Below are positions 41,463 to 54,851 of a DNA stretch of 64,000 nucleotides, one piece after another. A model generated the notes under the pieces. It ran no database searches, was not told where the DNA came from, and was given only the letters and a program-made list of their open reading frames with translations. The number at the start of each line of letters is the position of its first letter. The stretch's first letter is position 1. Where the stretch lies: positions 2,480,001-2,544,000 of the forward strand of contig NZ_CP069370.1 in NCBI RefSeq assembly GCF_019623905.1, read 5' to 3'. Position numbers and translations under genes: made by a program. Source of the stretch: Neotabrizicola shimadae (GTDB lineage: Bacteria; Pseudomonadota; Alphaproteobacteria; Rhodobacterales; Rhodobacteraceae).

Positions 41463-41564
41463 TCGCGAACATGCAGTCGTCGACAGGCCGGATCAAGTCC
41501 TGTTCCGACCGGACAAAACCGCCGAACGACATTGCACCCTCTTTTGATTCGCGCTAGATCAAAG

Positions 41565-41577
41565 GTTATAGTATAAC
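41565..41577. promoter_or_regulatory. Zur-like operator and promoter upstream of COG0523 gene
   Basis: GTTATAGTATAAC is a 13-bp palindrome around a central G. It overlaps a candidate -10 (TATAGT at 41567-41572) that lies 17 bp from TTGATT (41544-41549). A near-identical sequence is at 51251-51263. AT-rich palindromes of this kind are typical Zur sites. The expected transcript would have only about 13 bases before the ATG and no ribosome site. Confidence 0.75.
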
Positions 41578-41592
41578 ATAACAGAACGAACC

Positions 41593-42807
41593 ATGCCCTC
41601 CAGCCAGCAAGATCCCCGCCTTCCCGTCACCGTCCTGTCCGGCTTTCTCGGGGCCGGGAAGACAACCCTATTGAACCACGTGTTGAACAACCGCGACGGA
41701 CGCCGGGTCGCCGTGATCGTCAACGACATGTCCGAGGTGAACATCGACGCCGACCTGGTGCGCGAAGGGGCAGAGCTGAGCCGGTCTGAAGAAAAACTGG
41801 TCGAAATGACCAACGGCTGCATTTGCTGCACTCTGCGCGACGACCTTCTGACCGAGGTGCGGCGGCTGGCCTCCGAAGGTCGCTTTGACTACCTCCTGAT
41901 TGAAAGCACAGGGATCGCCGAGCCTTTACCGGTAGCGGCGACCTTCGACTTCCGTGACGAAAGGGGTGTCAGTCTCTCCGATGTTGCGCGACTTGATACG
42001 ATGGTGACGGTCGTGGATGCGGTGAACCTGCTCAAAGACTTCTCCAGCCACGATTTCCTGGCCGACCGGGGCGAAAGCCTTGGTGATCAGGACAACCGCA
42101 GCCTCGTGAACCTGCTGACCGAGCAGATGGAATTCGCCGATGTCATCGTGCTGAACAAGGTCGCGGACGCCACGCCTGCGCAGGTCGATGCCGCCCGCAA
42201 GATCGTTCGCGCCCTGAACCCCGACGCGCGCGTGATCGAGACCAGCCATTCCCGCGTGAATCCGGACGACATCTTCGACACCGGGCTCTTCGACTTTGAC
42301 GAGGCGCATACCCACCCGATGTGGGCCAAGGAGCTGTACGGTTTTGCCAATCACACGCCGGAAACCGAGGAGTATGGCATTTCCTCTTTCGTCTACTACG
42401 CCCGCGAGCCCTTCCACCCGGCGAAGATCCATGCCGTCCTGAACGGCCCGCTGCCGGGTGTGATCCGCGCAAAGGGGCATTTCTGGATCGCCACCAGGCC
42501 CGACTGGGTGGCCGAGTTCAGCCTGGCGGGTGCGATGTCCTCGGTCACGCCCCTGGGGCGCTGGTGGGCCAGCGTTCCGGCCGAGCGGCTGCCCAAGCAC
42601 CCCGACGCGCAAGCCGAAATTGCCTCGAAATGGGCCGAACCCTGGGGCGATCGGCGGCAAGAGATCGTGTTCATCGGGGCGGGCTTGGATCGTGAGGCGA
42701 TCTGCGCCGCGCTGAATGGGGCTTTGATGACAAGTTGCGACTTCACCCCGCAAGCTTGGCGCAACCTGCCTGACCCCTTCCCGCAATGGGGTGCGAAAGC
42801 CGCATGA
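41593..42807 (+). CDS. COG0523 (CobW/ZigA-like) metallochaperone GTPase, long form
   Basis: The 404-residue product has Walker [10 protein letters not shown], the metal motif [14 protein letters not shown], the guanine motif NKVAD and a C-terminal CobW_C domain with [10 protein letters not shown]. Long COG0523 proteins of this type under Zur control deliver zinc to essential enzymes in zinc shortage. A Zur-like operator lies 15 bp before the ATG. Its stop overlaps the start of the DUF1826 gene (ATGA). Confidence 0.9.
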
Positions 42808-43451
42808 TCCGGGTGGTCCGCAAACCGCTTCCGCGTGCCGTCTGGGTGGCCGCCTCGGACAAGGCAGAGGGCCTTGGGCGCATTCACGATCCGGGTATTG
42901 CGGCGGCGATCTGGCGCAGATCGCGCGACCCGGGTCTTGCTGCCTGGGTCGATAGCCTCTCGCCCGAGCGCCTGCCGTGTCTGCGTCAGGCGATGTCCGT
43001 GACAGATGTCGCGGCGGCAGTTCATGCCGCTTGCGACCGGCTGGGCCTTGCGCCGTCCCCGGAGCGGGGCCTGCTTGCCACCGATGCCGCGGCGCTGGCC
43101 CTTCGGTTCGGCACGATCATGGCCACGCCCAGGGTGCAGGTCCGGCTGGACGTGATCCGGAACAATGCCTGCCACAGGTTTCACTGCGACCGGGTGGTGG
43201 CGCGGCTCTTGTGCAGCTATCGTGGCCATGGCACCGAGTTCGGCCCGGCCACCGGGCAGGCAGAGGTCACGCAGGTGCAGACTCTGGCCGCCGGCGATGC
43301 CGCGATCTTTCGCGGCACGCTCTGGCCGGGCGAGGAATGCGGCCTCCTCCACCGCTCGCCGCCCATCGCGGGAACAGGTGAGACGCGGCTGCTTATGGTG
43401 ATCGACCTGCCCGAGGATGAGGACGACTGCGACTGCGGTTTGCCGCATTAG
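42804..43451 (+). CDS. DUF1826 family protein
   Basis: The 215-residue product matches DUF1826, a family of unknown function often found beside zinc-related COG0523 genes. Notable stretches are [57 protein letters not shown] and an acidic end [11 protein letters not shown]. The cluster of His and Cys suggests metal binding. The ATG at 42804 overlaps the GTPase stop, so the two are coupled; an upstream ATG at 42786 would add six residues. Confidence 0.82.
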
Positions 43452-43542: not shown

Positions 43543-43938
43543 CTATTCTGGCTGGTAATGAAGGAAGGCGCAGGCCAGCTTGTTGCCATCTGGGTCCCGC
43601 ACATAGGCCACATAGAATGTCGGTTCGTAATGGGGCCGTGTTCCGGGTTTCCCTTCATCACTGCCGCCATGCGCAAGAGCGGCGGCGTGGAAGTCGTTCA
43701 CTTCTTTTGCCGTTTTGGCAAAGAGCGTGACCATCGTGCCGTTACCTGCGGTGGGTCGCTTGCCATCATACGGGGGGCACAGCCAAAGGCTGGACCCCTC
43801 GCCGTAAGCGTCGCCCCATCCCGCCCAGCCATCAGGCCAGTCCGGCGCGCGGTCAAGGCCAAGGCTTGAAAACACGGCGTCATAAAAGCGGATCGCCCTT
43901 GCGAGATCGCTGGTGCCGAAGGTCATGTCTAGGATCAT
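43543..43938 (-). CDS. VOC (glyoxalase/bleomycin resistance) family protein
   Basis: The 131-residue product has one glyoxalase-type fold: MILDMTFGTSDLARAIRFYDAVFSSLGL, GTMVTLFAKTAKEVNDFHAAALAHGG and FYVAYVRDPDGNKLACAFLH. Metal-dependent chemistry is possible, but the substrate is unknown. AGGA precedes the ATG at 43938. It is the last minus-strand gene after the zinc operon, 36 bp beyond it, and may be part of it. Confidence 0.85.
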   Translation of the reverse strand: MILDMTFGTSDLARAIRFYDAVFSSLGLDRAPDWPDGWAGWGDAYGEGSSLWLCPPYDGKRPTAGNGTMVTLFAKTAKEVNDFHAAALAHGGSDEGKPGTRPHYEPTFYVAYVRDPDGNKLACAFLHYQPE

Positions 43939-43974
43939 TTTGTCTTCCTTTTCTTCTGCATGTCGAGACAAGGA

Positions 43975-44460
43975 TCAGTCCTCAGAGTGGGCTCCGGGCA
44001 GTTCCCGGACCATTCCTGCAGACAACGCACCGCTCAGATCTTTGCCGGATCGGCAAAGTCTCCGGGACGAATGCCTGGGCGTATCCTGATGGGACCAAGG
44101 ACTTGGTATCCATCCCAGCACCCTTGCGTCTTGAGCGGCCACAAGGTTCAGATGCATCTGCACCGGGAGTGCGCGCAAGATCGCGATGATCCGATCAGCC
44201 ACAGCCGGTGGACCGGCATCGATCAGAATGCGCGTTTGTGCGGGTTGCGACACGACGCGCAACAGGTGCAGGCGGGGGTGCCGTTCAGGCAGGCAGCAGG
44301 TGCAGCCGGGGCCTATCAGCCAGTCAAGTGGGCTGTAGAGCTGTTCTGCAACCTCGGCGAAAATGACCGAAGGCCGCCGCGAGGAACGTGCGAGCGTGGC
44401 GAGGCACGCAAGACGGTCGGCGGCGCGGTCGCCTTCCACAAGATGGACGAAAAAGGTCAC
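43975..44460 (-). CDS. COG0523-like protein without a P-loop (hypothetical)
   Basis: The 161-residue product has no Walker A motif but carries GCTCCLP near residue 52, like the CxCC metal motif of COG0523 GTPases, and RILIDAGPPAVADRI near residue 76, like their switch strand (ILIETTGMADP). It may be a metal-binding relic or partner of the GTPases. The start is GTG at 44460, overlapping the upstream stop by four bases. The last 40 residues look less ordered. Relation to COG0523 is my inference from short motifs. Confidence 0.6.
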   Translation of the reverse strand: MTFFVHLVEGDRAADRLACLATLARSSRRPSVIFAEVAEQLYSPLDWLIGPGCTCCLPERHPRLHLLRVVSQPAQTRILIDAGPPAVADRIIAILRALPVQMHLNLVAAQDARVLGWIPSPWSHQDTPRHSSRRLCRSGKDLSGALSAGMVRELPGAHSED

Positions 44461-44729
44461 GGGCCGGGGACGCTTGAACGCAGGGATTGCACCTGCGCCT
44501 CCGTCACCTCAGCAACCGCTGTTGGAAAGCGCAAGACAAATCGGCGGCGGTCGGCGAGGGTGACGGTGACCACGGTTTCCAGATCGGGGCAGCCGGGTTC
44601 GTGGCAGGCGAGTTCGGCCAACGCGATGTGGTCCTTGTCGCCCAGGCTCATAAGGTCGGCGACCCAGCCCTTCAGCCGGGAAACCGCCTCGGCATCCGGG
44701 CGCGGGCGGCGGGAGAAAAGGCCCAGCAT
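44457..44729 (-). CDS. Small conserved-looking protein in zinc operon
   Basis: The 90-residue product begins MLGLFSRRPRPDAEAVSRLKGWVADLM and contains IALAELACHEPGCPDLETVVTVTLADRRRFVLRFPTAV. The ACHEPGCPD segment has His and two Cys that could bind metal. I do not recognise the family. Its ATG meets the WD40 stop (shared base) and its stop overlaps the next GTG, so it is embedded in the operon. Confidence 0.75.
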   Translation of the reverse strand: MLGLFSRRPRPDAEAVSRLKGWVADLMSLGDKDHIALAELACHEPGCPDLETVVTVTLADRRRFVLRFPTAVAEVTEAQVQSLRSSVPGP

Positions 44730-45754
44730 CAGCCCGCCCCCAAGGGTGCCCAGAGGACGCCGCCTTGGTCATCTGCGGCCAGCAGCCAACCCGTCAGCGG
44801 CGTTACGGCAAGAGCCAAGATCGGCGCTCCGGTCGGGCGCTTGACGGCGCGCGGCTCGGCGATCTGGTCGATCTCGGAGAAGATCACTGCGCCCGACGAA
44901 TAGCCTGCCAACACGGCCTCATGCCCCGGCAGGGCGCAGACGGCGGTGACGTAGCCCCGCCCGCCCCAGGCCAGTTGCATCGGGCCGCGCCCCATCGGCC
45001 CCTGCGCCCCGTCAAAGGGCCAGAGGATCGCCTCATCCGCGCCGGTTGTGGCCAGCCAGGGCAGTTTGCCGGCCCAGGCCCAGCCCTTCACCTTGGTCGG
45101 ATAGCCCGACATGCGCAGGTCGGCCTTGTCGCGCAGCCGCCAGCCGTGCAGCGCGTTCTCCTGCATCCGGGTCATCACGAAACGGTCGTCGGGGCTGAAG
45201 GTGACGGCCGTGTGGCTGCCCGCCCACTTGAGGCTGGCGGGTTTCCACCCGCACCTTTCCCGCGCCCAAATCGTGACTCCGCCGTAATGTGCCACGGCCA
45301 GCCGCCCGCCCTTGCGGTCGAAGGCGAGGCCGCCGACGGTCGAGGGGGCTTCCAGCACCTCGCGCCGGGTGCCATCCCAAAGATGCACCTCGCGGCCCGC
45401 CGAGCAGGCAAAGACCCCACCCACGCCGGCCGCCACATGGTCCACCCATTTGGGAAAGGCCGCGATCTCGGTCACCCCCTCCGGCGTGATACGGCAGAAC
45501 CGGCCGTCATCGCCCCCGGTCAGGATCATTCCCGAGGACTCCGCCACCATCGACAGCACCGCGCCCTCGTGGACCGGCAGTGCTTCGGGGTCCGCGCCAG
45601 GGCGGAAGGCGCGGATCACGCCATCCCCCCAGGCGGTGAACGCGGTGTCGCCGACCGTCACCACCGCCACAGGAACGGCGCCGAAGTCGAACCTGCGCCC
45701 GCCCTTTTCGATGCGGGTGGGCGCTAGGGGATCATGCCGTTCCAGCACCGGCAT
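44729..45754 (-). CDS. Cytosolic WD40-repeat protein in zinc operon
   Basis: The 341-residue product has seven-bladed beta-propeller spacing with WD-like units (AFTAWGDGVIRAF, ILTGGDDGRFCRI, VFACSAGREVHLWDG, LAVAHYGGVTIWA, LATTGADEAILWPF, VLAGYSSGAVIFSE, LLAADDQGGVLWAPL). There is no signal peptide, unlike the periplasmic zinc chaperone AztD. It is coupled to the COG0523 gene by TGATG. A scaffold or metallation-partner role is possible but unknown. Confidence 0.82.
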   Translation of the reverse strand: MPVLERHDPLAPTRIEKGGRRFDFGAVPVAVVTVGDTAFTAWGDGVIRAFRPGADPEALPVHEGAVLSMVAESSGMILTGGDDGRFCRITPEGVTEIAAFPKWVDHVAAGVGGVFACSAGREVHLWDGTRREVLEAPSTVGGLAFDRKGGRLAVAHYGGVTIWARERCGWKPASLKWAGSHTAVTFSPDDRFVMTRMQENALHGWRLRDKADLRMSGYPTKVKGWAWAGKLPWLATTGADEAILWPFDGAQGPMGRGPMQLAWGGRGYVTAVCALPGHEAVLAGYSSGAVIFSEIDQIAEPRAVKRPTGAPILALAVTPLTGWLLAADDQGGVLWAPLGAG

Positions 45755-46716
45755 CAGGCGGCCTTGCAGGCGGCAAAGCCCTCGGCCAGCCCCATCTTGT
45801 CCAGATCGCGCCCGATGAACACCAGCTTCGACGCCCGCGGCTTGCCCTTGGGCCAGGGACCAAGCGGCGCGCCGTCGGTCAGCATGTGGACGGCATGGAC
45901 GACGAACCGCTCGTCCTGACCCTTGAAGTCGAGGATGCCCTTGGACCGCAGGATATCCTGCCCCCGCTCGCGCAGAAGCTTACCGAACCAGGCCTGGAAC
46001 TTGCGTTGATCGAGGGGAGTGTCCGAGGCCAGCGAGACCGAGGTGATGTCCTCCTCATGTTCGTGCGTATGGTCTTCGTCCAGGAAATCCGGCTCGATCT
46101 CCAGCACGCGTTCCAGACTGAAGGCATCAAGGCCCAGCACCTGATCCAGCGCCACGCTGCACTTCTCGGTCTTCACGATCTTCGCATAGGGGTTGATCGC
46201 CTTGATCCGCGCCTCGGCGGTGGCAAGACCGGCGGCATCGACCAGATCGACCTTGTTCAGAAGGATGATGTCGGCAAAGGCGATCTGTTCGGCTGCCTCA
46301 TGCGCCTCGTCCAGATGGGTGGACAGGTTCACCGCATCGACCACCGTCACGATGGCATCAAGCCGCGTCTTCTCGGCCACGTCCTGATCGACATAAAAGG
46401 TCTGTGCGACAGGCGCCGGGTCGGCCATGCCCGTCGTCTCGATCAGGATGCCGTCGAAGTCCTTGCGCTTCATCAGCCCGCCCAGAATGCGGATCAGATC
46501 GCCCCGTACGGTGCAGCAGATGCAGCCGTTGTTCATCTCGAAGATCTCTTCGTCGGCGTCGATGACCAGTTCATTGTCGATCCCGGTCTCGCCGAACTCG
46601 TTGATGATGACAGCGTATTTCTTGCCATGCGGCTCGGTCAGGATGCGGTTGAGAAGGGTGGTCTTGCCCGCGCCCAGAAAGCCGGTGAGCACGGTAACGG
46701 GGGTTTGGGCGTTCAT
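45754..46716 (-). CDS. COG0523 (CobW-like) metallochaperone GTPase, short form
   Basis: The 320-residue product has Walker [29 protein letters not shown] and a His-rich linker DEDHTHEHEED between the GTPase and CobW_C domains, fitting zinc binding. It lies 12 bp after the DUF4198 gene and overlaps the WD40 gene. Confidence 0.92.
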   Translation of the reverse strand: MNAQTPVTVLTGFLGAGKTTLLNRILTEPHGKKYAVIINEFGETGIDNELVIDADEEIFEMNNGCICCTVRGDLIRILGGLMKRKDFDGILIETTGMADPAPVAQTFYVDQDVAEKTRLDAIVTVVDAVNLSTHLDEAHEAAEQIAFADIILLNKVDLVDAAGLATAEARIKAINPYAKIVKTEKCSVALDQVLGLDAFSLERVLEIEPDFLDEDHTHEHEEDITSVSLASDTPLDQRKFQAWFGKLLRERGQDILRSKGILDFKGQDERFVVHAVHMLTDGAPLGPWPKGKPRASKLVFIGRDLDKMGLAEGFAACKAA

Positions 46717-46728
46717 GCGTCTTCTCCT

Positions 46729-47484
46729 CTATTCGACATGCGGAAGGGCGAAAGACAGGGTCGAGAACAGGAACAGCTCGTCGGTGTCCGGGTCATCGGT
46801 GACCTTGGTCGAATGTTCGACGCCCACGACGTTCAGACCGGCGCTGGTGACCTTGAGTGTGATCATGCCCTTGTCGTCGGTCACCGCCGGCGTCATGCCG
46901 TTCGGCAGGTTGATGTAGTCGTTGATGAGAGCAACGCCCGGCAGCGGTTCGCCATTCAGCAGCACCTGCACGACATATTCATCACCATAGGCCAAGGCGG
47001 CGGGGTTGGACTGGGGCACGATCTCCAGCGCGGCACCCCATGGCGCAAGCGGGCCTTCGAAGGGTCCGGCGAGGTGGGTGTTGTATTTCAGCGGATGGTG
47101 CGCCTCGGTCCCGTCGGGCACCTGGCGCTTGCCGACGTTCTGCCAGTTGCCGGTCGAATCCTTGATCCAGAAGCCGTTGTCGAAGGTGGTGGCCACCACA
47201 GCGGCGCCTTCGGGAATGTCGATCGTCGCGTTGGACTCGTGCGGGGTGATCGTCACGGCAAGCTTCTCGCCGCTTGTGGTCAGGCCGACGGACTGGGTGA
47301 CCTTTGCCGGGTCATAGGCCCCATCCTCGCTGCCATGCCCATAGACGATGGTCGGCTGATCGATGCGTTGCGCGACCCAGATGCCGTGCGCGGCTGCTAG
47401 GGTAGGAATGCAGGCCAGCGCGGACACTGTGGCGATGCGGGCGGCGAAAGCGGCGAAGTGGAAGCGTTGGGCGACGGTTTGCAT
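46729..47484 (-). CDS. Secreted DUF4198 (NikK-like) metal-binding protein
   Basis: The 251-residue product has a signal peptide (ALACIPTLAAA) with predicted cleavage just before HGIWVAQRI, leaving an N-terminal His. The DUF4198 fold follows, with GHGSEDGAYDP and a late Ig-like domain (VVQVLLNGEPLPGVALINDY, GMITLKVTSAGLNVVGVEH). Family members are periplasmic and linked to transition-metal uptake. AGGA precedes the ATG. It lies 54 bp after the 49-residue ORF within the zinc operon. Confidence 0.82.
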   Translation of the reverse strand: MQTVAQRFHFAAFAARIATVSALACIPTLAAAHGIWVAQRIDQPTIVYGHGSEDGAYDPAKVTQSVGLTTSGEKLAVTITPHESNATIDIPEGAAVVATTFDNGFWIKDSTGNWQNVGKRQVPDGTEAHHPLKYNTHLAGPFEGPLAPWGAALEIVPQSNPAALAYGDEYVVQVLLNGEPLPGVALINDYINLPNGMTPAVTDDKGMITLKVTSAGLNVVGVEHSTKVTDDPDTDELFLFSTLSFALPHVE

Positions 47485-47538
47485 GGGTTTTCCTCTGAAA
47501 TGGCGTTGAGTGTTCAGGTTGATCTGTGGCGTAAAGGT

Positions 47539-47688
47539 TCAGTCCTTTGGCACCGGAAGGCTGTTATCGGATACGGTCAGCGAAAGATCCGCCTCCGTCC
47601 TGGACGCGCAGCGCCATTTCGGAAACCCCTGACCGGCCATGACAGGGGCCGCAAAGCTGCCCCCGACGATGGCGACATCCAGCGTCAC
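47539..47688 (-). CDS. Short 49-residue ORF overlapping the zinc-binding-protein gene
   Basis: A GTG at 47688 overlaps the stop of the upstream gene by four bases (GTGA), the same junction type used elsewhere in this operon. The product, VTLDVAIVGGSFAAPVMAGQ then GFPKWRCASRTEADLSLTVS and DNSLPVPKD, has a hydrophobic first half and a single Cys. I do not recognise it; it may be a small protein or the remnant of a longer gene. Confidence 0.5.
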   Translation of the reverse strand: MTLDVAIVGGSFAAPVMAGQGFPKWRCASRTEADLSLTVSDNSLPVPKD

Positions 47689-48635
47689 TGCCCGAGGGCC
47701 GCCGTCAGCTGGCCGATGTTGTAGCGCATCATGGTCAGATAGGTCCCGGCGGGGCCTTCAGGACCCGACAGCGCGTCGGAATAGAGCGTGCCGCCAACCT
47801 TGGCCCCCGTCTCGGCAGCGATCTGGTCCAGAAGCCGGGGGTCCGAGATGTTCTCCATGAAGACCGCCGGGATCTTCTCATCGCGGATCTGGGTGATCAG
47901 CGCGGCCACATCCGCCGCCGAGGCTTCGGACTCCGTCGAAATCCCCTGCGGCGCCTTGAAGGTCATCCCATAGGCGTCGCCGAAATAGCCGAAGGCGTCG
48001 TGCGAGGTGACGATGGTGCGGCGATCCTCCGGCAGCGCGGCGATGGCGGCCTTGATCTCGGCATCCACCGCCTGCAGCTCTGCCATATAGGCGGCGGCGT
48101 TGGCTTTGTAGGTCTCGGCCCCTTCCGGATCAGCGGCGGTCAGACCGCGTTCGATGTTGCCGACGTAAATCTCGACGTTCGCCACGCTTTGCCAGGCGTG
48201 CGGGTCCTGGCCGCCGTGGTCGTGATCGTGGCCGGCCTCTTCCTCGGCGTGGTCGTGGTCCTCGCCTTCCGCATGGTCATGCCCTTCTTCCTCAAAGGCG
48301 CGGGGCGTCACGCCTTCCGAGGCGGTGATGATAGTGGCCTTGGTGCCCGAGGCTTCGACCAGTCGGTCCATCCAGCCTTCGAACCCAAGGCCATTGGCGA
48401 CGATCACATCCGCGCCCGCGACGGCCTGGGCATCGGCAGGTGCGGGCTGGAACACATGGGCGTCGCCATCCGGGCCGACGAGCGTTGTCACCTCCACCCG
48501 ATCGCCGCCGACATTCTGCACGATGTCGCCGAGGATCGAGAAGGTGGCGATCACGTTCAGCTTGTCCTGCGCAAACGCGGGTGCTGCGAAGGCGATGGCG
48601 GCGGCAGAGGCGAGGAGGAGACGGCGGGTCAGCAT
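47685..48635 (-). CDS. aztC: Zinc ABC transporter substrate-binding protein (AztC/ZnuA-like)
   Basis: The 316-residue product has a signal peptide (ending APAFAQ) and the cluster A-I zinc-binding fold. His60 lies in GDAHVFQP, then a His/Glu-rich loop (EEEGHDHAEGEDHDHAEEE and GHDHDHGG), DPHAWQSV, SHDAFGYF and MENISDPRL, which supply the other ligands. The core resembles Paracoccus AztC, but the His loop is longer, as in ZnuA. It captures Zn2+ in the periplasm for the AztBA-like permease and ATPase. Confidence 0.88.
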   Translation of the reverse strand: MLTRRLLLASAAAIAFAAPAFAQDKLNVIATFSILGDIVQNVGGDRVEVTTLVGPDGDAHVFQPAPADAQAVAGADVIVANGLGFEGWMDRLVEASGTKATIITASEGVTPRAFEEEGHDHAEGEDHDHAEEEAGHDHDHGGQDPHAWQSVANVEIYVGNIERGLTAADPEGAETYKANAAAYMAELQAVDAEIKAAIAALPEDRRTIVTSHDAFGYFGDAYGMTFKAPQGISTESEASAADVAALITQIRDEKIPAVFMENISDPRLLDQIAAETGAKVGGTLYSDALSGPEGPAGTYLTMMRYNIGQLTAALGQ

Positions 48636-48647
48636 GGGGATAACCTT

Positions 48648-49511
48648 TCAGGCTTCAAGATGGGCGCGCGGCCAGAAACGGGCGGCAAGGCTGCCCGCGG
48701 GGCCGAACACGAGGGAGAGGAGGTAGAGGGTTCCGGCGGAGAGGATGATCGCGGGGCCAGAGGGCAGCCCTGCGTGGTATGACGCCAGGAGCCCCGCGAC
48801 AGAGGAGACCGCCGCAACCAATGCGGCCACTGCCAGCATCCCGCCGATGGAGGTTGCCCAGAACCGGGCGGTGGCGGCGGGCAGGATCATGATCCCCACC
48901 GCCATCAGCGTGCCAAGCGCCTGAAACCCCGCGACGAGGTTCAGCACCACAAGGCCCAGGAACAGGAAATGCACCGGCCCGCTCCATAGGCTCACCGACC
49001 GCAAGAACCGCGGATCAGCGCATTCCAGAACCAGCGGGCGATAAACCAGCGCCAGAGAAACGAGTGTCACCGTGGTGATCGCGCAGAGCAGCCTCAGCGC
49101 GGCATCGTCGAGTGCCAGCACCGTGCCGAAAAGGACGTGCATCAGGTCCACGTTCGAGCCCTTGAGCGAGACGAGTAGCACGCCCAGGGCCAGCGAGATC
49201 AGGTAGAAGGCGGCCAGCGAGGCATCCTCGCGCAGCGACGTGAAGCGCGCGACAGCCCCGGTCAGCACCGCGACGACCAGACCGGCGGCCACCCCACCGA
49301 TCGTCATCGCCCCGAGGTTCAGCCCGGCCACCAGATAGCCCACCGCCGCGCCGGGCAGGATCGCATGGGCCATGGCATCGCCCGTCAGGCTCATCCGCCG
49401 CAACAGCAGGAACACCCCCACCGGTGTCGCCCCCAGCGAGATCGCCAGACACCCCAGAAGCGCGCGCTGCATGAAGGCGAAGTCGGCGAAGGGCTCGATC
49501 AGCCAGCTCAT
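48648..49511 (-). CDS. aztB: Zinc ABC transporter permease (AztB/ZnuB-like)
   Basis: The 287-residue product has about eight membrane helices and ABC-3 family motifs (LLRRMSLTGDAMAHAILPGAAVGYL, FGTVLALDD, GTLMAVGIMILPAATARFW). It overlaps the ATPase gene by four bases (ATGA) and precedes the binding-protein gene by 12 bp. Confidence 0.88.
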   Translation of the reverse strand: MSWLIEPFADFAFMQRALLGCLAISLGATPVGVFLLLRRMSLTGDAMAHAILPGAAVGYLVAGLNLGAMTIGGVAAGLVVAVLTGAVARFTSLREDASLAAFYLISLALGVLLVSLKGSNVDLMHVLFGTVLALDDAALRLLCAITTVTLVSLALVYRPLVLECADPRFLRSVSLWSGPVHFLFLGLVVLNLVAGFQALGTLMAVGIMILPAATARFWATSIGGMLAVAALVAAVSSVAGLLASYHAGLPSGPAIILSAGTLYLLSLVFGPAGSLAARFWPRAHLEA

Positions 49512-50248
49512 GCCGCCCCCCGCTCAGCGGGCCGGACGCAGACGTTTGCGTCGTCGTCGAAGGCCTCGGACATCTGCCGCGCGCGGAACAGGTTCTCGGC
49601 GGTCAGGACGGTGTCCGTCGGCCCATGCGCCACCTTTTCGCGTGCCAGCAGCAGAGTTTCGGGGAAATGACGGCGCACGGCCTCGATATCGTGCAGCACC
49701 GCCAGAACCGTCCGGCCCTCGCCATGCCAGCGCTGCACGACTGCCAGAAGATCGGCGGCGGTCTTGGCGTCGAGCGCTGTGAAGGGTTCGTCCAGAAGGA
49801 TCAGGTCCGCGTCCTGCAGCAACAGCCGTGCGAACATCACCCGCTGCACCTGCCCGCCCGACAGGGCCGAGATCGGGCGGCGCTCAAATCCGGTCAGGCC
49901 GACGGCGGCCAGCGCCTCACCCACCCGGGCAAGATCGGCGCGCGACAGCCCGCCAAAGGCCCCCGTGCGATGCCAAAGCCCCATGGCGACGAAAGCCTGT
50001 ACCGACAGGGGAAAACTGCGGTCCACTTCGGAGAGTTGCGGCAGATAGGCCACGCGCGCCGCCCCGCGCTCGATCTTGCCCTCGAGCGGCGGCAACTCGC
50101 CCATTACGCCTTTCAGAAGGGTGGACTTGCCCGCGCCGTTCGGTCCGACAATCGCGGTCAGGCTGCCCCCCGCCAGTTCAAGGTCAAGGTGATGCACCGC
50201 GGGATGGCGGTCATAGCCAAGGGTCAGGTCGCGCACACGCAAGGCCAT
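49508..50248 (-). CDS. aztA: Zinc ABC transporter ATP-binding protein (AztA/ZnuC-like)
   Basis: The 246-residue product has Walker A GPNGAGKST, YLPQLSEVDRSFPLSV (Q-loop), LSGGQVQRV (signature), LILLDEPFTALD (Walker B) and VLHDIE (switch). It begins three bases after a 33-residue membrane peptide and overlaps the permease gene. Confidence 0.9.
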   Translation of the reverse strand: MALRVRDLTLGYDRHPAVHHLDLELAGGSLTAIVGPNGAGKSTLLKGVMGELPPLEGKIERGAARVAYLPQLSEVDRSFPLSVQAFVAMGLWHRTGAFGGLSRADLARVGEALAAVGLTGFERRPISALSGGQVQRVMFARLLLQDADLILLDEPFTALDAKTAADLLAVVQRWHGEGRTVLAVLHDIEAVRRHFPETLLLAREKVAHGPTDTVLTAENLFRARQMSEAFDDDANVCVRPAERGAA

Positions 50249-50251
50249 GGC

Positions 50252-50353
50252 TCAGCCCGCCACCAGCCAAAGGCCCAGCCACAGAAGCCCTGAGAGGCCA
50301 AGGGCAAGCGCCAGCCGAGCCACGGCCCCGGAAAGAAGAAGATCGCGCTTCAT
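50252..50353 (-). CDS. 33-residue single-span membrane peptide
   Basis: ATGA overlap with the zur-like stop starts a 33-codon frame: MKRDLLLSGAVARLALALGL then SGLLWLGLWLVAG. It has a basic N-terminus and one hydrophobic helix. It fills exactly the gap between the zur-like gene and aztA. Tight packing with both neighbours supports translation, but no family is recognised. Confidence 0.65.
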   Translation of the reverse strand: MKRDLLLSGAVARLALALGLSGLLWLGLWLVAG

Positions 50354-50745
50354 GCCCGGTCCTCCGCGCAGTCACCGCAGCGGCCATGCACCTCGATGGT
50401 CTGGCGGGCCTCGGCAAAACCCTCGGCGGCCAGGCGCTGATGCAGGCTTTCCAACAGGCCGGGAGCTTCGACACCACGCACCGTCCCGCAATCGTCGCAG
50501 ATCACCACCACGCCGGGGCGGATGGCCGCAACCGGAGCCCAGGCGCGCAGGGTTTCGATCCGGCGGATCAGGCCCGCCTCCTCCAGCCCCTTCAGTGCCC
50601 GGTACACAGTGGGCGGCGCCACCGCGCCGCGATCCGTCTGCATCCGGCCCAGAAGTTGATAGGCGGTCATCGGCGCGTTGGCCGCGCGCAGATGGTTCAG
50701 CACCTGCACCTGATTGGGGGTCAGATGGTCTGCGCTCTGCCCCAT
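50350..50745 (-). CDS. zur: FUR-family regulator, Zur-like
   Basis: The 131-residue product has a winged helix (VLNHLRAANAPMTAYQLLGRM...PPTVYRALKGLEEAGLI) and two structural CxxC zinc pairs (Cys83/86 and Cys123/126, the latter in EVHGRCGDC). The sensory site usual in Zur is absent: where Cys and two His are expected 10, 5 and 3 residues before Cys83 there are Ala, Gly and Val. It may respond to zinc differently or depend on another Zur. It is coupled to hisI by TGATG. The operator at 51251 lies upstream of the operon. Confidence 0.82.
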   Translation of the reverse strand: MGQSADHLTPNQVQVLNHLRAANAPMTAYQLLGRMQTDRGAVAPPTVYRALKGLEEAGLIRRIETLRAWAPVAAIRPGVVVICDDCGTVRGVEAPGLLESLHQRLAAEGFAEARQTIEVHGRCGDCAEDRA

Positions 50746-51215
50746 CACAGCACCGTCGGGTTGGGCGCATCGCCATAGACGGCGACCGGATCGAACCGCT
50801 TGGCCGCTTCGACGAACCGCAGCGGCGCACCTGCCCGATCCCCGAACGGCACCGCGCGGTAGAAGCAGGACCGATAGCCCACATGGCAGGACGCGCCTGA
50901 CTCTGCCACCTCGACCGCCAGCCACAGCGCATCCTGATCGTCGTCGATCCGTATCTCGACCACGCGCTGCACAAGGCCCGAGGTCGCGCCCTTGTGCCAG
51001 ACCGCTTGACGGGTGCGGCTGAAGTGATGCGCCTCTCCCGTTGCGATGGTCAGGCGCAGGGCCTCGGCGTTCATCCAGCCGATCATCAGCACCGTGCCAT
51101 CACCCGCATCGCTCGCGACGCAGGGCATAAGCCCGTCCATCGGAACACGCGGGGCTAGGGTCTGGCCCTCTTCCACGTCAAGAACCGAAAGGCGGGGGGC
51201 GAAGGTGATGTTCAT
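50745..51215 (-). CDS. hisI: Phosphoribosyl-AMP cyclohydrolase paralog (HisI2 type)
   Basis: HisI opens the adenine ring of phosphoribosyl-AMP in histidine synthesis and is a zinc enzyme. The 156-residue product has the MIGWMNAEAL and SRTRQAVWHKGATSG motifs and the pair CHVGYRSCF (Cys110, Cys117). The remaining zinc ligand, the Cys of DCDxD, is replaced: the motif is DDDQD (91-95) with Asp92. Genomic context is zinc starvation, where second copies of zinc enzymes, HisI included, are known. An N-terminal extension of about 25 residues precedes the core. Confidence 0.9.
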   Translation of the reverse strand: MNITFAPRLSVLDVEEGQTLAPRVPMDGLMPCVASDAGDGTVLMIGWMNAEALRLTIATGEAHHFSRTRQAVWHKGATSGLVQRVVEIRIDDDQDALWLAVEVAESGASCHVGYRSCFYRAVPFGDRAGAPLRFVEAAKRFDPVAVYGDAPNPTVL

Positions 51216-51250
51216 GGGGATTGCTTTCGACAGATCGTCGGCAGATATAC

Positions 51251-51263
51251 GTTACAGTATAAC
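51251..51263. promoter_or_regulatory. Zur-like operator between hisI operon and COG0523 gene
   Basis: GTTACAGTATAAC differs at one base from the palindrome at 41565-41577, and both are followed by AT. It lies in the 73-bp gap between two divergent starts, so it can control both. Confidence 0.72.
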
Positions 51264-51288
51264 ATTGCGCAAGTCGGATGACCGCTCT

Positions 51289-52422
51289 ATGCCGAAACGT
51301 ATCCCCCTGACGCTCATCACCGGCTATCTGGCTGCGGGCAAGACCACGCTGCTGAACGCGCTCCTGCGCGATGCGTCGGCGGGCCGGATCGCGGTGGTGG
51401 TGAACGAGTTCGGCGATGTGGGCCTCGACCACGACCTGATCGTCGAGACGACCGAGGAAACGGTGCTGCTATCGTCAGGCTGCATGTGCTGCACGGTGCG
51501 CGGTGATCTGGTGCAGGCGCTGGAGGGGCTGTTCGAAAAGCGCAGCGCAGGCAAGCTGGACTTTGACCGCATCGTGATCGAGACGACAGGCCTCGCCGAT
51601 CCCGCGCCGATCCTGCACACGCTGATCGTGACGCCCGGTCTTGGTGCGGCCCTGCGGATGGATGGCGTGGTCACCGTCTGTGATGCCGTGAACGGCCCCG
51701 TAACGCTGGACCGTGGGTTTGAAAGCGTCCAGCAAGTCGCGATGGCCGATGTGCTGGTGCTGTCGAAGACCGACCTGGTCACACCCACACAAGCGGCGAA
51801 GTTCCGCGCCCGGCTAGCGGCTTTGGCGCCGGGAGCAAAGATCGTCACGGCAAGTCAGGGCGCGGTCCCCATCAACGAACTCTTCGGCCACGGCGCGCCC
51901 GACATGGGCGGCGCATTGCCCGAGGCCGAGGCATGGGTCAACACGCCCGCCTATGCGCTGTCTTCCTTGCCGCTGCCGGTTCTGACTAAGCCCGGCGCGT
52001 CTTTGGCTGGCGCGGGTCCGACCTATGGCCTTTTCGGAATGGCTCCCACCCCGACCCCCAGCCTGATTTCTGCCATCATCCCCGCCGCGCATCACGACGA
52101 CCGAATCTCCTCGGTCTCGATGGTCTTCGATGACCCGATCCATCCGATCATGCTGGACATCTGGCTGGAAACCCTGATCGCCGCCCGCGGCCCTGACATC
52201 TTGCGCGTGAAGGCTGTGATCTGGGCAGACGGCTTCGACACGCCCTTCGTGATCCACGGCGTGCAGCACATCATCGACCCACCCATTCGCCTTGCCCGCT
52301 GGAATGGCACCGACCGCAAGAGCCGCGTCGTCATCATCGGCCGCGACCTGCCGCGTGAGGCCTTGCTCGAGAGCCTGGAGGTACTGAAAACGCGGCCAAT
52401 GGTACATCCGCTACCGGCCTGA
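51289..52422 (+). CDS. COG0523 (CobW-like) metallochaperone GTPase, third copy
   Basis: The 377-residue product has a variant Walker A GYLAAGKTT, GCMCC, IETTGLADP and a guanine motif SKTDL. The CobW_C region includes DIWLETLIAARGPDILRVKAV. It is divergent from hisI across a Zur-like operator, so zinc control is likely. It is the last plus-strand gene before the interrupted recombinase. Confidence 0.9.
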   Translation: MPKRIPLTLITGYLAAGKTTLLNALLRDASAGRIAVVVNEFGDVGLDHDLIVETTEETVLLSSGCMCCTVRGDLVQALEGLFEKRSAGKLDFDRIVIETTGLADPAPILHTLIVTPGLGAALRMDGVVTVCDAVNGPVTLDRGFESVQQVAMADVLVLSKTDLVTPTQAAKFRARLAALAPGAKIVTASQGAVPINELFGHGAPDMGGALPEAEAWVNTPAYALSSLPLPVLTKPGASLAGAGPTYGLFGMAPTPTPSLISAIIPAAHHDDRISSVSMVFDDPIHPIMLDIWLETLIAARGPDILRVKAVIWADGFDTPFVIHGVQHIIDPPIRLARWNGTDRKSRVVIIGRDLPREALLESLEVLKTRPMVHPLPA

Positions 52423-52493: not shown

Positions 52494-53132
52494 CTACAAC
52501 AGTGCCCCCACCGCATTGCCAGTGAACAGTTCACCCTCGCGGACGTAGCGCGCCAGCATGGCGTCTGAGGCATGGCCGGTCTGGGCGCGGATTTTCAAGG
52601 TGGAGACCCCTGCCTGTGCCGCGCTGGTGGCAAAGCCTGCCCGCAGGCTGTTGCCGGAGTAGCCTTCGGGGTCGATCCCTGCCGCTGCCAGCCGTTCCCG
52701 CAGCAGGACCGACACGGCGTCCCCGGTAAGCGGGTTCGTAGCGACATGGCCGTGCCGGGTGATCGGGCGGAACAGGGAGCCGGTGTCGATGCCAGAGGCT
52801 GCAAGCCACGCCTCGACTGCCGTAACGGGGCAATGGCGGGTGCGTCCGTGCGGGATGCCGATGCGTCGCCCCGCCGCCTCTTGATCGGTCTTGCTGCGCC
52901 GGATGGTCACGATCAGCCCTTGGCGGGCGGTTTCGATGTCGGCCCGTTCCAGCGCCACAAGTTCGGAGCGGCGGAAGCCCCCGGCGAAGCCCAGGAGCAA
53001 CAGCGCCCGGTCGCGATGGTCGCGCAGGGTTTCCCCCAGGCTGTCCAGCACCAGCAGCAGGTCATCGCGCATCAGCGGTTTGGCCTGTCGTTGTGCGGTG
53101 CCGTGCTTGCGGCGCAGGCCGCGCAATGTGGC
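52494..53132 (-). pseudogene. C-terminal part of tyrosine recombinase split by IS21 element
   Basis: This part encodes 212 residues with the catalytic domain: Arg in GFRRSELVAL, Lys region TIRRSKTDQE, NSLRAGFAT where HxLR is usual, GHASD and the nucleophile Tyr in MLARYVREG. It lacks the core-binding domain, which lies beyond the insertion at 55747-56133. Joined at the 7-bp duplication, the two parts make one frame of 341 codons (...AEIVK + ATLRGLRRK...). Confidence 0.85.
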
Positions 53133-53139
53133 CTTCACG

Positions 53140-53263
53140 TGCGTGTTCCACGTGATCGTGGGCAGTCATTCCACGGGATGATGGGCAGTGTTTCCACGTG
53201 ATCGTGGGCGGCTGTTCCACGGCATTGTGGGCATGTGTTCCACGCGAAGGTGGGCAGTTTTGA
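53140..53263 (+). repeat. Left-end multiple repeats of the IS21 element
   Basis: Five successive copies of a unit like TTCCACGTGATCGTGGGCAG are present, some diverged. Multiple terminal repeats are typical IstA-binding sites of the IS21 family. Confidence 0.85.
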
Positions 53264-53312
53264 CCGACAATCTGAAGCTACGGTGTCCCTGTGTTTGAAG
53301 GGGAGAGCCGAG

Positions 53313-54851
53313 ATGCCAACGGGACGATTGTCGATGCGACGGATACGCGATGTTTTGAGGCTCCGACTGGGGCAGAAGCTAAGTGAGCGGCAGATTTCTG
53401 CGTCGCTTGGGTTGGGAAAGGGCACTGTAGGTTCGTACTTAAGTCGTGCGCGTGCAGCAGGCTTGAGTTGGCCTTTGCCCGACGGGCTTTCTGACGATGA
53501 CCTTGAGTTGCTACTTTTTCCTGCGCCGCCTGCGGTCAGCGACCCGGAGCGTCCGGTTCCAGATTGGGTTGAGATTGACCGAGAGTTGCGCCGCCCTGGG
53601 GTCACCCGCGCCTTGCTCTGGGAGGAGTATCGGCAAGCCTACCCTCATGGCTTTGGATATGCTTGGTTCTGTGAACATTACGACGCTTGGAAGGGTCGTG
53701 TCCGCCCGACGATGCGGCAGACGCATGTTGGTGGTGAGAAAGTCTTTGTCGACTTTGCGGGCGACACGATTGATGTAATCGACCCGGTAACGGGCGAGGC
53801 CCGTGCGATGAAACTCTTTGTCGCCACGTTGGGTGCGTCCAACTACACCTATGCCGAGGCTGTCGGGTCCGAAGGCCTTGAAGACTGGATCCTTGCCCAT
53901 GTCCGAATGTTCGCCTTCCTTGGCGGAGCGCCGCGTGCTGTTGTACCGGACAATCTGAAGTCGGCTGTTCTGAAGGCAGATCGCTACGATCCAGGATTGA
54001 ACCGGACCTATGCGGAAATGGCCGCGCACTATGGGACGGCTGTATTACCTGCACGTCCCTACAAGCCCCGAGACAAAGCCAAAGTTGAAGTTGCAGTGCA
54101 GGTTGCACAGCGCTGGGTACTGGCTTGCTTGCGCAATCGCCGCTTCTTCTGCCTGCGCGATCTCAATGCTGCGATAAAACTGTTGGTTGATCGGCTCAAC
54201 ACGCGTGTCATGCGCGGCTACAGCGCCAGTCGAGCTGATCTTTTTGCGACCCTGGATCGACCCAACCTCCAGCCTCTACCATCTGAGCCCTACGAATTTG
54301 CGCTTTGGAAGAAGGCTCGTGTTGCGCCCGATTACCATGTTGAGGTGAATAGTTCTTGGTATTCTGTGCCCTTTGGTCTGATCCGCCAGGAAGTCGATAT
54401 CAGAGTTTGTGGCGATGTGGTGGAGGTCTTCCATAAGGGTGTGCGCGTTGCCAGCCATCCGCGCTGCCTGGGTCGACGTAGCCATGTGACACTCGCGGAA
54501 CATATGCCATCAGCCCATCGGCGGCATGCTGACTGGACGCCCGCGAGGATCCTCGCTCAGGCGGAAAAACTTGGGCCGTCCGTGGCGTCGTTTTGCGAAA
54601 CCATCATGACCGACCGCCCCCACCCTGAGCAGGGCTTCAGAACCTGTCTGGGTATCTTGGCCTTGGCAAAGAGCTATGAGCCCGCACGCATCGATGCGGC
54701 CTGCCGACGGGGCTTGAGCATCCGCGCCCGATCTGTGGCTTCCATCAAATCCATCCTCAAAGCCCGCCTAGACCAAGCCTTCCTCGACGAAAACGCTGAA
54801 GAGGCGCCGCTGCAGCACGCCAACATCCGTGGCCAGAGCTACTATCACTAG
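53313..54851 (+). CDS. istA: IS21-family transposase IstA
   Basis: The 512-residue product has an N-terminal helix-turn-helix (LRLRLGQKLSERQISASLGLGKGTVGSYLSRA), then an rve catalytic domain with the acidic residues seen as VDFAGD, VPDNLKS and AKVEVAV, and a C-terminal Mu-like barrel. AGGGGAGAG precedes the ATG at 53313. Base composition is lower in GC than the island's metal genes. Confidence 0.95.
   Translation: MPTGRLSMRRIRDVLRLRLGQKLSERQISASLGLGKGTVGSYLSRARAAGLSWPLPDGLSDDDLELLLFPAPPAVSDPERPVPDWVEIDRELRRPGVTRALLWEEYRQAYPHGFGYAWFCEHYDAWKGRVRPTMRQTHVGGEKVFVDFAGDTIDVIDPVTGEARAMKLFVATLGASNYTYAEAVGSEGLEDWILAHVRMFAFLGGAPRAVVPDNLKSAVLKADRYDPGLNRTYAEMAAHYGTAVLPARPYKPRDKAKVEVAVQVAQRWVLACLRNRRFFCLRDLNAAIKLLVDRLNTRVMRGYSASRADLFATLDRPNLQPLPSEPYEFALWKKARVAPDYHVEVNSSWYSVPFGLIRQEVDIRVCGDVVEVFHKGVRVASHPRCLGRRSHVTLAEHMPSAHRRHADWTPARILAQAEKLGPSVASFCETIMTDRPHPEQGFRTCLGILALAKSYEPARIDAACRRGLSIRARSVASIKSILKARLDQAFLDENAEEAPLQHANIRGQSYYH

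Follow-up and report, generated by a model that had tools for sequence, protein, structure and literature searches.

We analyzed a 64,000-nucleotide stretch of the Neotabrizicola shimadae genome (contig NZ_CP069370.1, positions 2,480,001 to 2,544,000; hereafter the window), in which a block of genes led by a hisI paralog looks like a real, conserved gene set for zinc shortage. The initial annotation, made from the sequence alone, had described 12–13 genes running in one direction, with most junctions overlapping by 1–4 bases. In agreement with this, 13 collinear open reading frames (ORFs) lie on the minus strand from 51215 to 43543, and at 7 of the 12 junctions neighboring ORFs share 1 or 4 bases (a relic 49-aa ORF takes part in one of these), while the other junctions leave gaps of 3, 12, 54, 12, and 3 bases. 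Pfam and NCBIfam profiles assigned HisI, Fur-family, AztA, AztB- and AztC-like, DUF4198, COG0523 (cobW), WD40, and glyoxalase/VOC products, in accord with the earlier labels for these genes; the 33-, 49-, 90-, and 161-residue products matched no family in the Pfam search. Pattern scans detected no terminator-like site on the minus strand of the block, and two weak promoter-like sites inside it (0.9 expected) but none at the operator. The operator and the genes of chief interest are:

51250..51264, no strand assigned: Zur-type operator (sequence-predicted), TGTTATACTGTAACG with 0 mismatches, common to the hisI operon (minus) and COG0523b (plus)
51289..52422, plus: divergent COG0523 GTPase b (cobW 156 bits)
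50745..51215, minus: HisI2, a HisI paralog with DDD replacing the DCD zinc-ligand motif (PRK00051 134.4 bits, over the cut-off of 126)
50350..50745, minus: Zur paralog, site A kept and sensor site B lost (FUR 36.6 bits over 23.1; alignments to E. coli Zur)
50252..50353, minus: p33, a 33-residue hydrophobic membrane peptide
49508..50248, minus: AztA-type ATPase (NF040873 231.9 bits, above the cut-off of 220)
48648..49511, minus: AztB-type permease (NF040871 274.5 bits, just under the cut-off of 280)
47685..48635, minus: AztC-type zinc-binding protein, predicted (NF040870 341.4 bits, just under the cut-off of 350; ZnuA 321.5 bits)
45754..46716, minus: COG0523 GTPase a (cobW 203 bits)
44729..45754, minus: WD40 beta-propeller protein
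44457..44729, minus: p90, a 90-aa COG0523-associated protein with the motif E-L-x-C-x-E-P-x-C-P-x-x-E-T
43975..44460, minus: p161 ORF, 161 aa, with a conserved part at 44134–44460 (109 aa; p109), apparently a half COG0523-like domain, in which CxCC is present and Arg replaces the Walker A Lys

The Zur-like operator proposed earlier corresponds to the site at 51250–51264. From this site it is 34 bases to the start of hisI and 24 bases to that of the divergent COG0523 gene. A pattern scan of the window gave 5 matches at 2 places, compared with 0.17 expected. In the 4.39-Mb genome, the exact sequence GTTATANNRTAAC occurs at only 4 distinct places (the reversed pattern, used as a control, gave 1 hit): the 51250 site, the 41565 site in the window, a site before a COG0523 gene at 0.71 Mb, and a site between a ZnuA-family gene (znuA) and a second zur. 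Three of these precede COG0523 genes. Neither COG0523b nor the second operator with its COG0523c-DUF1826 pair had been included in the gene set first described. The fourth operator, near 3.79 Mb of the same genome (L045), is surrounded by the gene of the ZnuA family, that of a canonical Zur, and one for an ABC (ATP-binding cassette) ATPase; with this further set, the genome has two zinc-type ABC systems.

The order COG0523b/operator/hisI-zur-p33-aztA-aztB-aztC-COG0523a-WD40-p90 is identical in all eight relatives (L046, L047, L048, L049, L051, L052, L053, and L146, a Gemmobacter aquarius plasmid), each with a like operator between the same two genes and with COG0523b divergent, and p109 comes next in the seven whose contig continues. 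The alternative envisaged in the initial annotation, that the order is unique to one strain, is therefore refuted. L027/L053 and L028/L049 were taken as the same genomes and counted once, and L050 was excluded because its contig begins at p90. Other parts vary among the eight: 4 carry an oxidoreductase gene between aztC and COG0523a, a VOC gene follows in 2 (the L048 contig ends right after p90, so that VOC could not show there), and DUF4198 is found in none. In the more distant L054 and L055, the order is only partly kept and the operator pattern has no match. The L053 record is titled Exiguobacterium profundum, a label that is probably wrong (operon identity 75–96%). Purifying selection acts on zur, p33, WD40, and p90 (pN/pS 0.09–0.36; WD40 rows with stops or odd lengths were dropped).

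The Zur paralog, HisI2 and the transporter

The Zur paralog scored 69.2 bits against the NCBIfam equivalog PRK11639, under its cut-off of 167. Aligned with E. coli Zur, the four cysteines of structural site A are kept in 7/7 intact operon-type copies and in the Gemmobacter copy, as is, in the paralog, the PPTVYRAL stretch of the DNA-binding domain, but none of the four ligands of site B (His77, Cys88, His96, and Glu111 of E. coli) is present in those eight copies; the L053 gene, with its broken frame, was dropped from the count. A further 33 Zur rows, part of them from the same genome, retain Cys88 in 32 cases, Glu111 in 32, and His77 in 30; the His96 column, in a loop that is hard to align, is H in only 5. 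The canonical Zur of the same genome has all four site B ligands. The paralog is nevertheless under purifying selection (pN/pS 0.09–0.27 in four comparisons). It thus shares the DNA-binding domain and the four-cysteine site A of E. coli Zur (PMC4219657; structure 4mtd), from which it differs in having lost the whole sensor site. In E. coli Zur, C88S abolishes DNA binding, and dimer formation depends on site A (PMC4219657). Because the paralog encoded in the operon has lost its sensor site, the zinc sensor of the operon is more likely the canonical Zur beside znuA, as far as the sequences indicate. L029 holds the sole other row without Cys88, in a zur-COG0523-WD40 locus where His77 and Glu111 are also lost and no azt genes stand beside; because this Zur has lost site B ligands without adjoining azt genes, sensor loss may have occurred more than once.

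HisI2 carries Asp in place of one of the three catalytic zinc Cys in 12/12 copies (DDDQD), with IDCDRD in the main genomic HisI, the only canonical comparison used. The 12 copies are that of the operon and 11 from related loci, of which L054, L056, and L059 lie outside the operon type; the partial L076 hisI was dropped. In plant HISN2, three cysteines hold the catalytic zinc, and the Cys lost in HisI2 is one of them (PMC8102479). HisI paralogs in Zur regulons retain their zinc ligands according to Haas et al. (PMC2770081); because HisI2 does not, it appears to be another variant. With its altered zinc site, it offers a direct test of zinc sparing.

The transporter resembles AztABCD of Paracoccus denitrificans (PMC6689063, PMC5387054) in its putative AztA/B/C-type ABC components and in Zur control, which is predicted here. 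Fur and CobW-type genes are described as common neighbors of AztD in the same reports. Unlike the P. denitrificans system, this genome has no AztD match, and its propeller adjoins COG0523 and shows no signal sequence by eye. We considered whether the WD40 protein is itself AztD and rejected this, as no AztD match was found anywhere in the genome. Preceding aztA is p33, kept in 8/8 relatives (pN/pS 0.22–0.36 in four comparisons). Similar single-helix peptides, judged by eye, stand just before aztA in L055, L040, and Skermanella; on the strength of this recurrence and of its conservation, the sequence of p33 suggests an AztABC accessory peptide.

The COG0523-WD40-p90 triad and p109

COG0523a has an intact Walker A motif (GFLGAGKTT) and CxCC motif (NNGCICC), and scores 41 bits against NF047431, which requires 375. 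Its closest solved relative is E. coli YjiA (1nij; E 1.5e-50), for which no zinc regulation or tie to WD40 or p90 appeared in the material compared. The WD40 protein matched PF00400 at 27.6 bits, with a cut-off of 27, and the solved WD40 chain 2ymu at E 4e-11. Its homologs occur in 16 of 248 genomes of the family, and COG0523 lies directly upstream of WD40 in 15/15 fetched family loci (from 14 of the 16 genomes; the window's own copy and one contig-end copy lie outside this set).

Scanning genome contigs with a p90 alignment matched 155 stretches, of which 124 were confirmed and 80 kept; 8 of the 80 were dropped for a short upstream flank. The arrangement COG0523-WD40-p90 on one strand is seen in 70 of the remaining 72 loci, and in 28 of 30 after removal of near-copies. 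In L084, one of the two exceptions, COG0523-WD40 stop 1.6 kb upstream of p90; in the other, L090, p90 is flanked by a COG0523 gene on each side. Triad loci come mainly from Alphaproteobacteria; the other labels are L081 Nitrospira, L102 Kuenenia (with the order p90-COG0523-WD40), L084 Gemmatimonadetes, L090 Verrucomicrobia, and L060 Anaerolineae, and may be wrong because all five are metagenome-assembled genomes or draft bins. Genes for zur and zinc ABC transporters are common neighbors, varying in position and strand. Upstream of the triad, Zur-like boxes were found at p<0.02 in 15 of 27 non-redundant loci, including L090, and a box score of 10 or more in 19 of 27; the matrix was built solely from sites of the window's own genome, and 5 of 32 loci were left out.

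Searches starting from p90 itself gave a looser picture. Across the class, 13 of 385 genomes held p90 at 15 places, with COG0523 in the flank of 13, WD40 alone at 1, and neither at 1; across the family, 27 of 394 genomes held it at 28 places, 23 with COG0523 within about 1.5 kb. Of the 14 plasmid records, six have COG0523 immediately upstream, and zinc ABC genes are found in six. Taken together, these searches make p90 a frequent, not an obligate, COG0523 neighbor. On plasmids of Phyllobacterium and Sinorhizobium, the order COG0523-p90-ABC transporter is similar to that of P. denitrificans pden1338-1344. This Zur-box operon, in which COG0523 is joined by two hypothetical genes, is reported to rise 8.6- to 13.2-fold on zinc depletion (PMC5387054). 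It resembles the present block in placing COG0523 and a pair of hypothetical genes after a Zur motif, pden1339/pden1340 being likened to our genes by layout and not by sequence.

In a 38-row p90 alignment, E39, C42, P45, C47, and E51 are invariant, but P45 does vary in rhizobial copies; the sequence hints at a metal site. The p90 model (pLDDT, or predicted local distance difference test, 85) has an alpha-beta-beta-beta-alpha layout, and a PDB sequence search returned nothing under E 0.67. VIA rows 1 and 3–14 are, by title, ribosome structures or protein Y chains (best Z 5.5, 5zep_x, root-mean-square deviation (rmsd) 3.7, 80 residues), and on the basis of the model we leave open whether p90 has a fold like that of a ribosome-hibernation factor or a double-stranded RNA-binding domain. 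The COG0523-like protein MRF of mycobacteria recruits a ribosome-hibernation factor under zinc starvation.

Three plasmid p90 homologs (L147, L148, and L159) are annotated 'nitrate reductase', which nothing in our analysis supports and which is probably an annotation error. Elsewhere, p90-like genes have amidohydrolase, RraA-family, and hydrolase genes in their vicinity (L198 6895–11306, L155, and L158; in L198 together with COG0523), and such neighborhoods are possibly a delivery set for one zinc enzyme. In L191 (7256–10833), a DDE transposase ORF separates COG0523-WD40 from the short p90 ORF that comes after it, so that the triad is naturally disrupted.

The last conserved gene, with a 161-aa product, had been described as COG0523-like. 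Its likeness to COG0523 is local, it has CxCC, and it looks P-loop-less. Conservation is chiefly over the first 109 residues: 5 of 7 complete relatives stop after 109–110 residues, L047 continues for another 23 residues of unrelated sequence, and the tail of L046 partly resembles that of the window's protein. No Pfam family matched p109. Against the COG0523 profile, 32 columns aligned, GCTCC with GCICC, at a local score of 30.2 and a probability of 31%, and the global alignment failed; none of 150 column permutations reached that local score (best 20.0). The Walker A lysine is Arg in 7/7 aligned rows, from which the partial L051 copy was dropped. In the p109 model (pLDDT 80.7), beta and alpha elements alternate in a domain that resembles P-loop NTPases; the best Foldseek E is 0.029. 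The top VIA rows are 2yv4 (Z 8.7, rmsd 2.7, 86 residues) and the designed P-loop ATPase 9jix_C (Z 8.6, rmsd 2.5, 88 residues); many P-loop kinases stand in lower rows, and no COG0523 chain is among the rows listed. We regard p109, with moderate confidence, as a decayed half COG0523 domain that has kept the metal motif.

Proposed mechanism and rival explanations

The explanation that fits best, and which we consider probable, is a Zur-controlled zinc-scarcity operon. Direct observation covers the genes and how they are ordered, the sequence of the operator, conservation, losses of ligands, and neighbor statistics; co-transcription, zinc response, zinc binding, protein contacts, and gene functions are our inferences. 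With ample zinc, the canonical Zur, whose gene is next to znuA, would bind the shared operator and silence both directions. When zinc runs low, AztABC would import it without AztD, perhaps with p33 as a small subunit, and HisI2 with its altered metal site would sustain histidine synthesis. COG0523a, the WD40 propeller, and p90 would then pass scarce zinc to chosen clients, with the propeller offering a platform for docking and p90, as a small partner, either holding metal or specifying clients, and the half-COG0523 protein would contribute its CxCC metal site. Finally, the sensor-less Zur paralog, made only on derepression, would act back on the operator; in the dominant-negative form of this idea, it would pair with Zur through its intact site A, be unable to close on DNA, and lock the regulon open once the cell is starved. 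The combined proposal that p90 is a general small COG0523 partner forming a client-selecting zinc-delivery complex with WD40, by analogy with cytosolic iron-sulphur assembly, in which a propeller serves in targeting, and that the sensor-less Zur is a natural dominant-negative, is speculative and more probably wrong than right. The initial annotation had suggested a zinc-delivery system joining uptake, regulation, and metallation; uptake and probable metallation are backed by the operator, the gene content, and the conservation in all eight relatives, but regulation is doubtful, as the encoded Zur lacks a sensor site.

Several observations weigh against a zinc-scarcity operon of this kind. Some relatives have broken or partial genes: aztC and COG0523a are present only in part in L052, aztA is partial in L146, p109 is cut short in L051, and zur in L053 and aztC, WD40, and DUF1826 in L049 match in two pieces, which could be decay or assembly errors, between which we cannot tell. 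AztB and AztC fall narrowly under their curated cut-offs, and AztD (NF038015) has no match in the whole genome, with a match in 2 of 14 control genomes. A significant Zur-like box is missing from 12 of 27 triad loci, and the L090 box scores low. COG0523 is on the same strand as p90 at only 10 of the 28 places of the family search, and the 14 plasmid p90 records have COG0523 in the fetched flank in 7, WD40 only in 1 (Methylobacterium), and neither in 6. Remote p90 relatives lack the cysteines, the p90 model has no clear fold match (Foldseek best E 0.039), and p109 is weakly constrained (pN/pS 0.34–0.52).

Some of these points would suit an ordinary Zur regulon cluster, in which the genes have nothing but a regulator in common and neither WD40 nor p90, p109, or the small peptide contributes to metal delivery. 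The variable composition of the block in relatives (oxidoreductase, VOC, and DUF4198) and the plasmid records of p90 without COG0523 agree with such a cluster, and Zur clusters of unlinked genes are known (PMC2770081). However, the COG0523-WD40-p90 order stays constant across lineages in which zur and transporter genes shift place and strand, and COG0523 was directly upstream of WD40 at every fetched family locus, so that we judge a mere regulon cluster possible but unlikely. It is less likely still that the Zur paralog, without site B, is the operon's own regulator, acting constitutively or on another signal or metal, with zinc only indirectly involved. Its place inside the operon, the purifying selection on it, and its PPTVYRAL stretch speak for such a role, but loss of the site B cysteine in E. 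coli abolishes DNA binding (PMC4219657), and the genome also encodes a canonical four-ligand Zur next to a similar operator. We think it very improbable that the main metal is cobalt or nickel: COG0523 and DUF4198-type proteins are also found with cobalt and nickel genes and the Gemmobacter block adjoins cobalamin genes, yet the AztA equivalog, the ZnuA-family binding protein, the Zur-type operator shared with znuA, and HisI all point to zinc.

The system had also been suggested to be new, which holds only in part. Haas et al. (2009; PMC2770081) described COG0523 subfamily 5 genes beside WD40 and znuABC, some behind predicted Zur sites, as well as HisI paralogs in Zur regulons. The neighborhood of WD40, zinc ABC transporter, and Zur site recurs here, a likeness of surroundings and not of tree position, whereas p90, the putative half COG0523, the sensor-less Zur, and the membrane peptide distinguish our block from those clusters as far as compared. 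Most of the gene set is of a known kind: published work covers the link of COG0523 with WD40 and znuABC, Zur sites ahead of some subfamily 5 members, and the occurrence of DUF1826 and HisI in Zur contexts. A literature search of partial coverage returned no account of p90, the p109 protein, p33, or a sensor-less Zur, which is weak evidence of absence because these have no established names to search. The p90 family, the sensor-less Zur, the Asp-bearing HisI2, and the p33 that accompanies AztABC are the new points, with presumptive functions. Of these, p90 and the Zur paralog are most worth bench work: p90 and the WD40 propeller are concrete proteins with which to study how COG0523 GTPases choose their clients, and a Zur that lost its sensor but stays under selection would amount to a simple natural circuit by which zinc starvation becomes a switch.

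Optional and flanking genes

The remaining features of the block and its surroundings are:

47539..47688, minus: 49-aa relic of an oxidoreductase gene, the first ~55 bases 91% identical to the intact gene of L047/L048
46729..47484, minus: DUF4198 protein, optional (PF10670 66.3 bits over 34); after p90 in L061
43543..43938, minus: VOC protein, optional, likely ATG at 43938 (Glyoxalase 30.1 bits over 20.6)
41564..41578, no strand assigned: second Zur-type operator (sequence-predicted), GGTTATAGTATAACA, heading COG0523c-DUF1826
41593..42807, plus: COG0523 GTPase c (cobW 184 bits)
42786..43451, plus: DUF1826 protein (PF08856 160 bits)

The 49-residue ORF, first listed as a gene of the operon, is the decayed start of an oxidoreductase gene whose remainder is gone, and we rejected it as a small peptide; the gene is intact in L046, L047, L048, and L049, and the L046 protein matches Pyr_redox_2. 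DUF1826 genes have been reported in Zur contexts (PMC5786701, PMC2770081). COG0523c and DUF1826 are likewise neighbors in L046, L047, L049, and L146; L055, L057, L060, and L062 have a COG0523-DUF1826 pair close to the triad. At 52494–54851, the zinc genes are bordered by an ORF of the phage-integrase family and one for a transposase (rve, Mu-transpos_C_2); because of these ORFs, and because the Gemmobacter copy is on a plasmid, the zinc block may be mobile.

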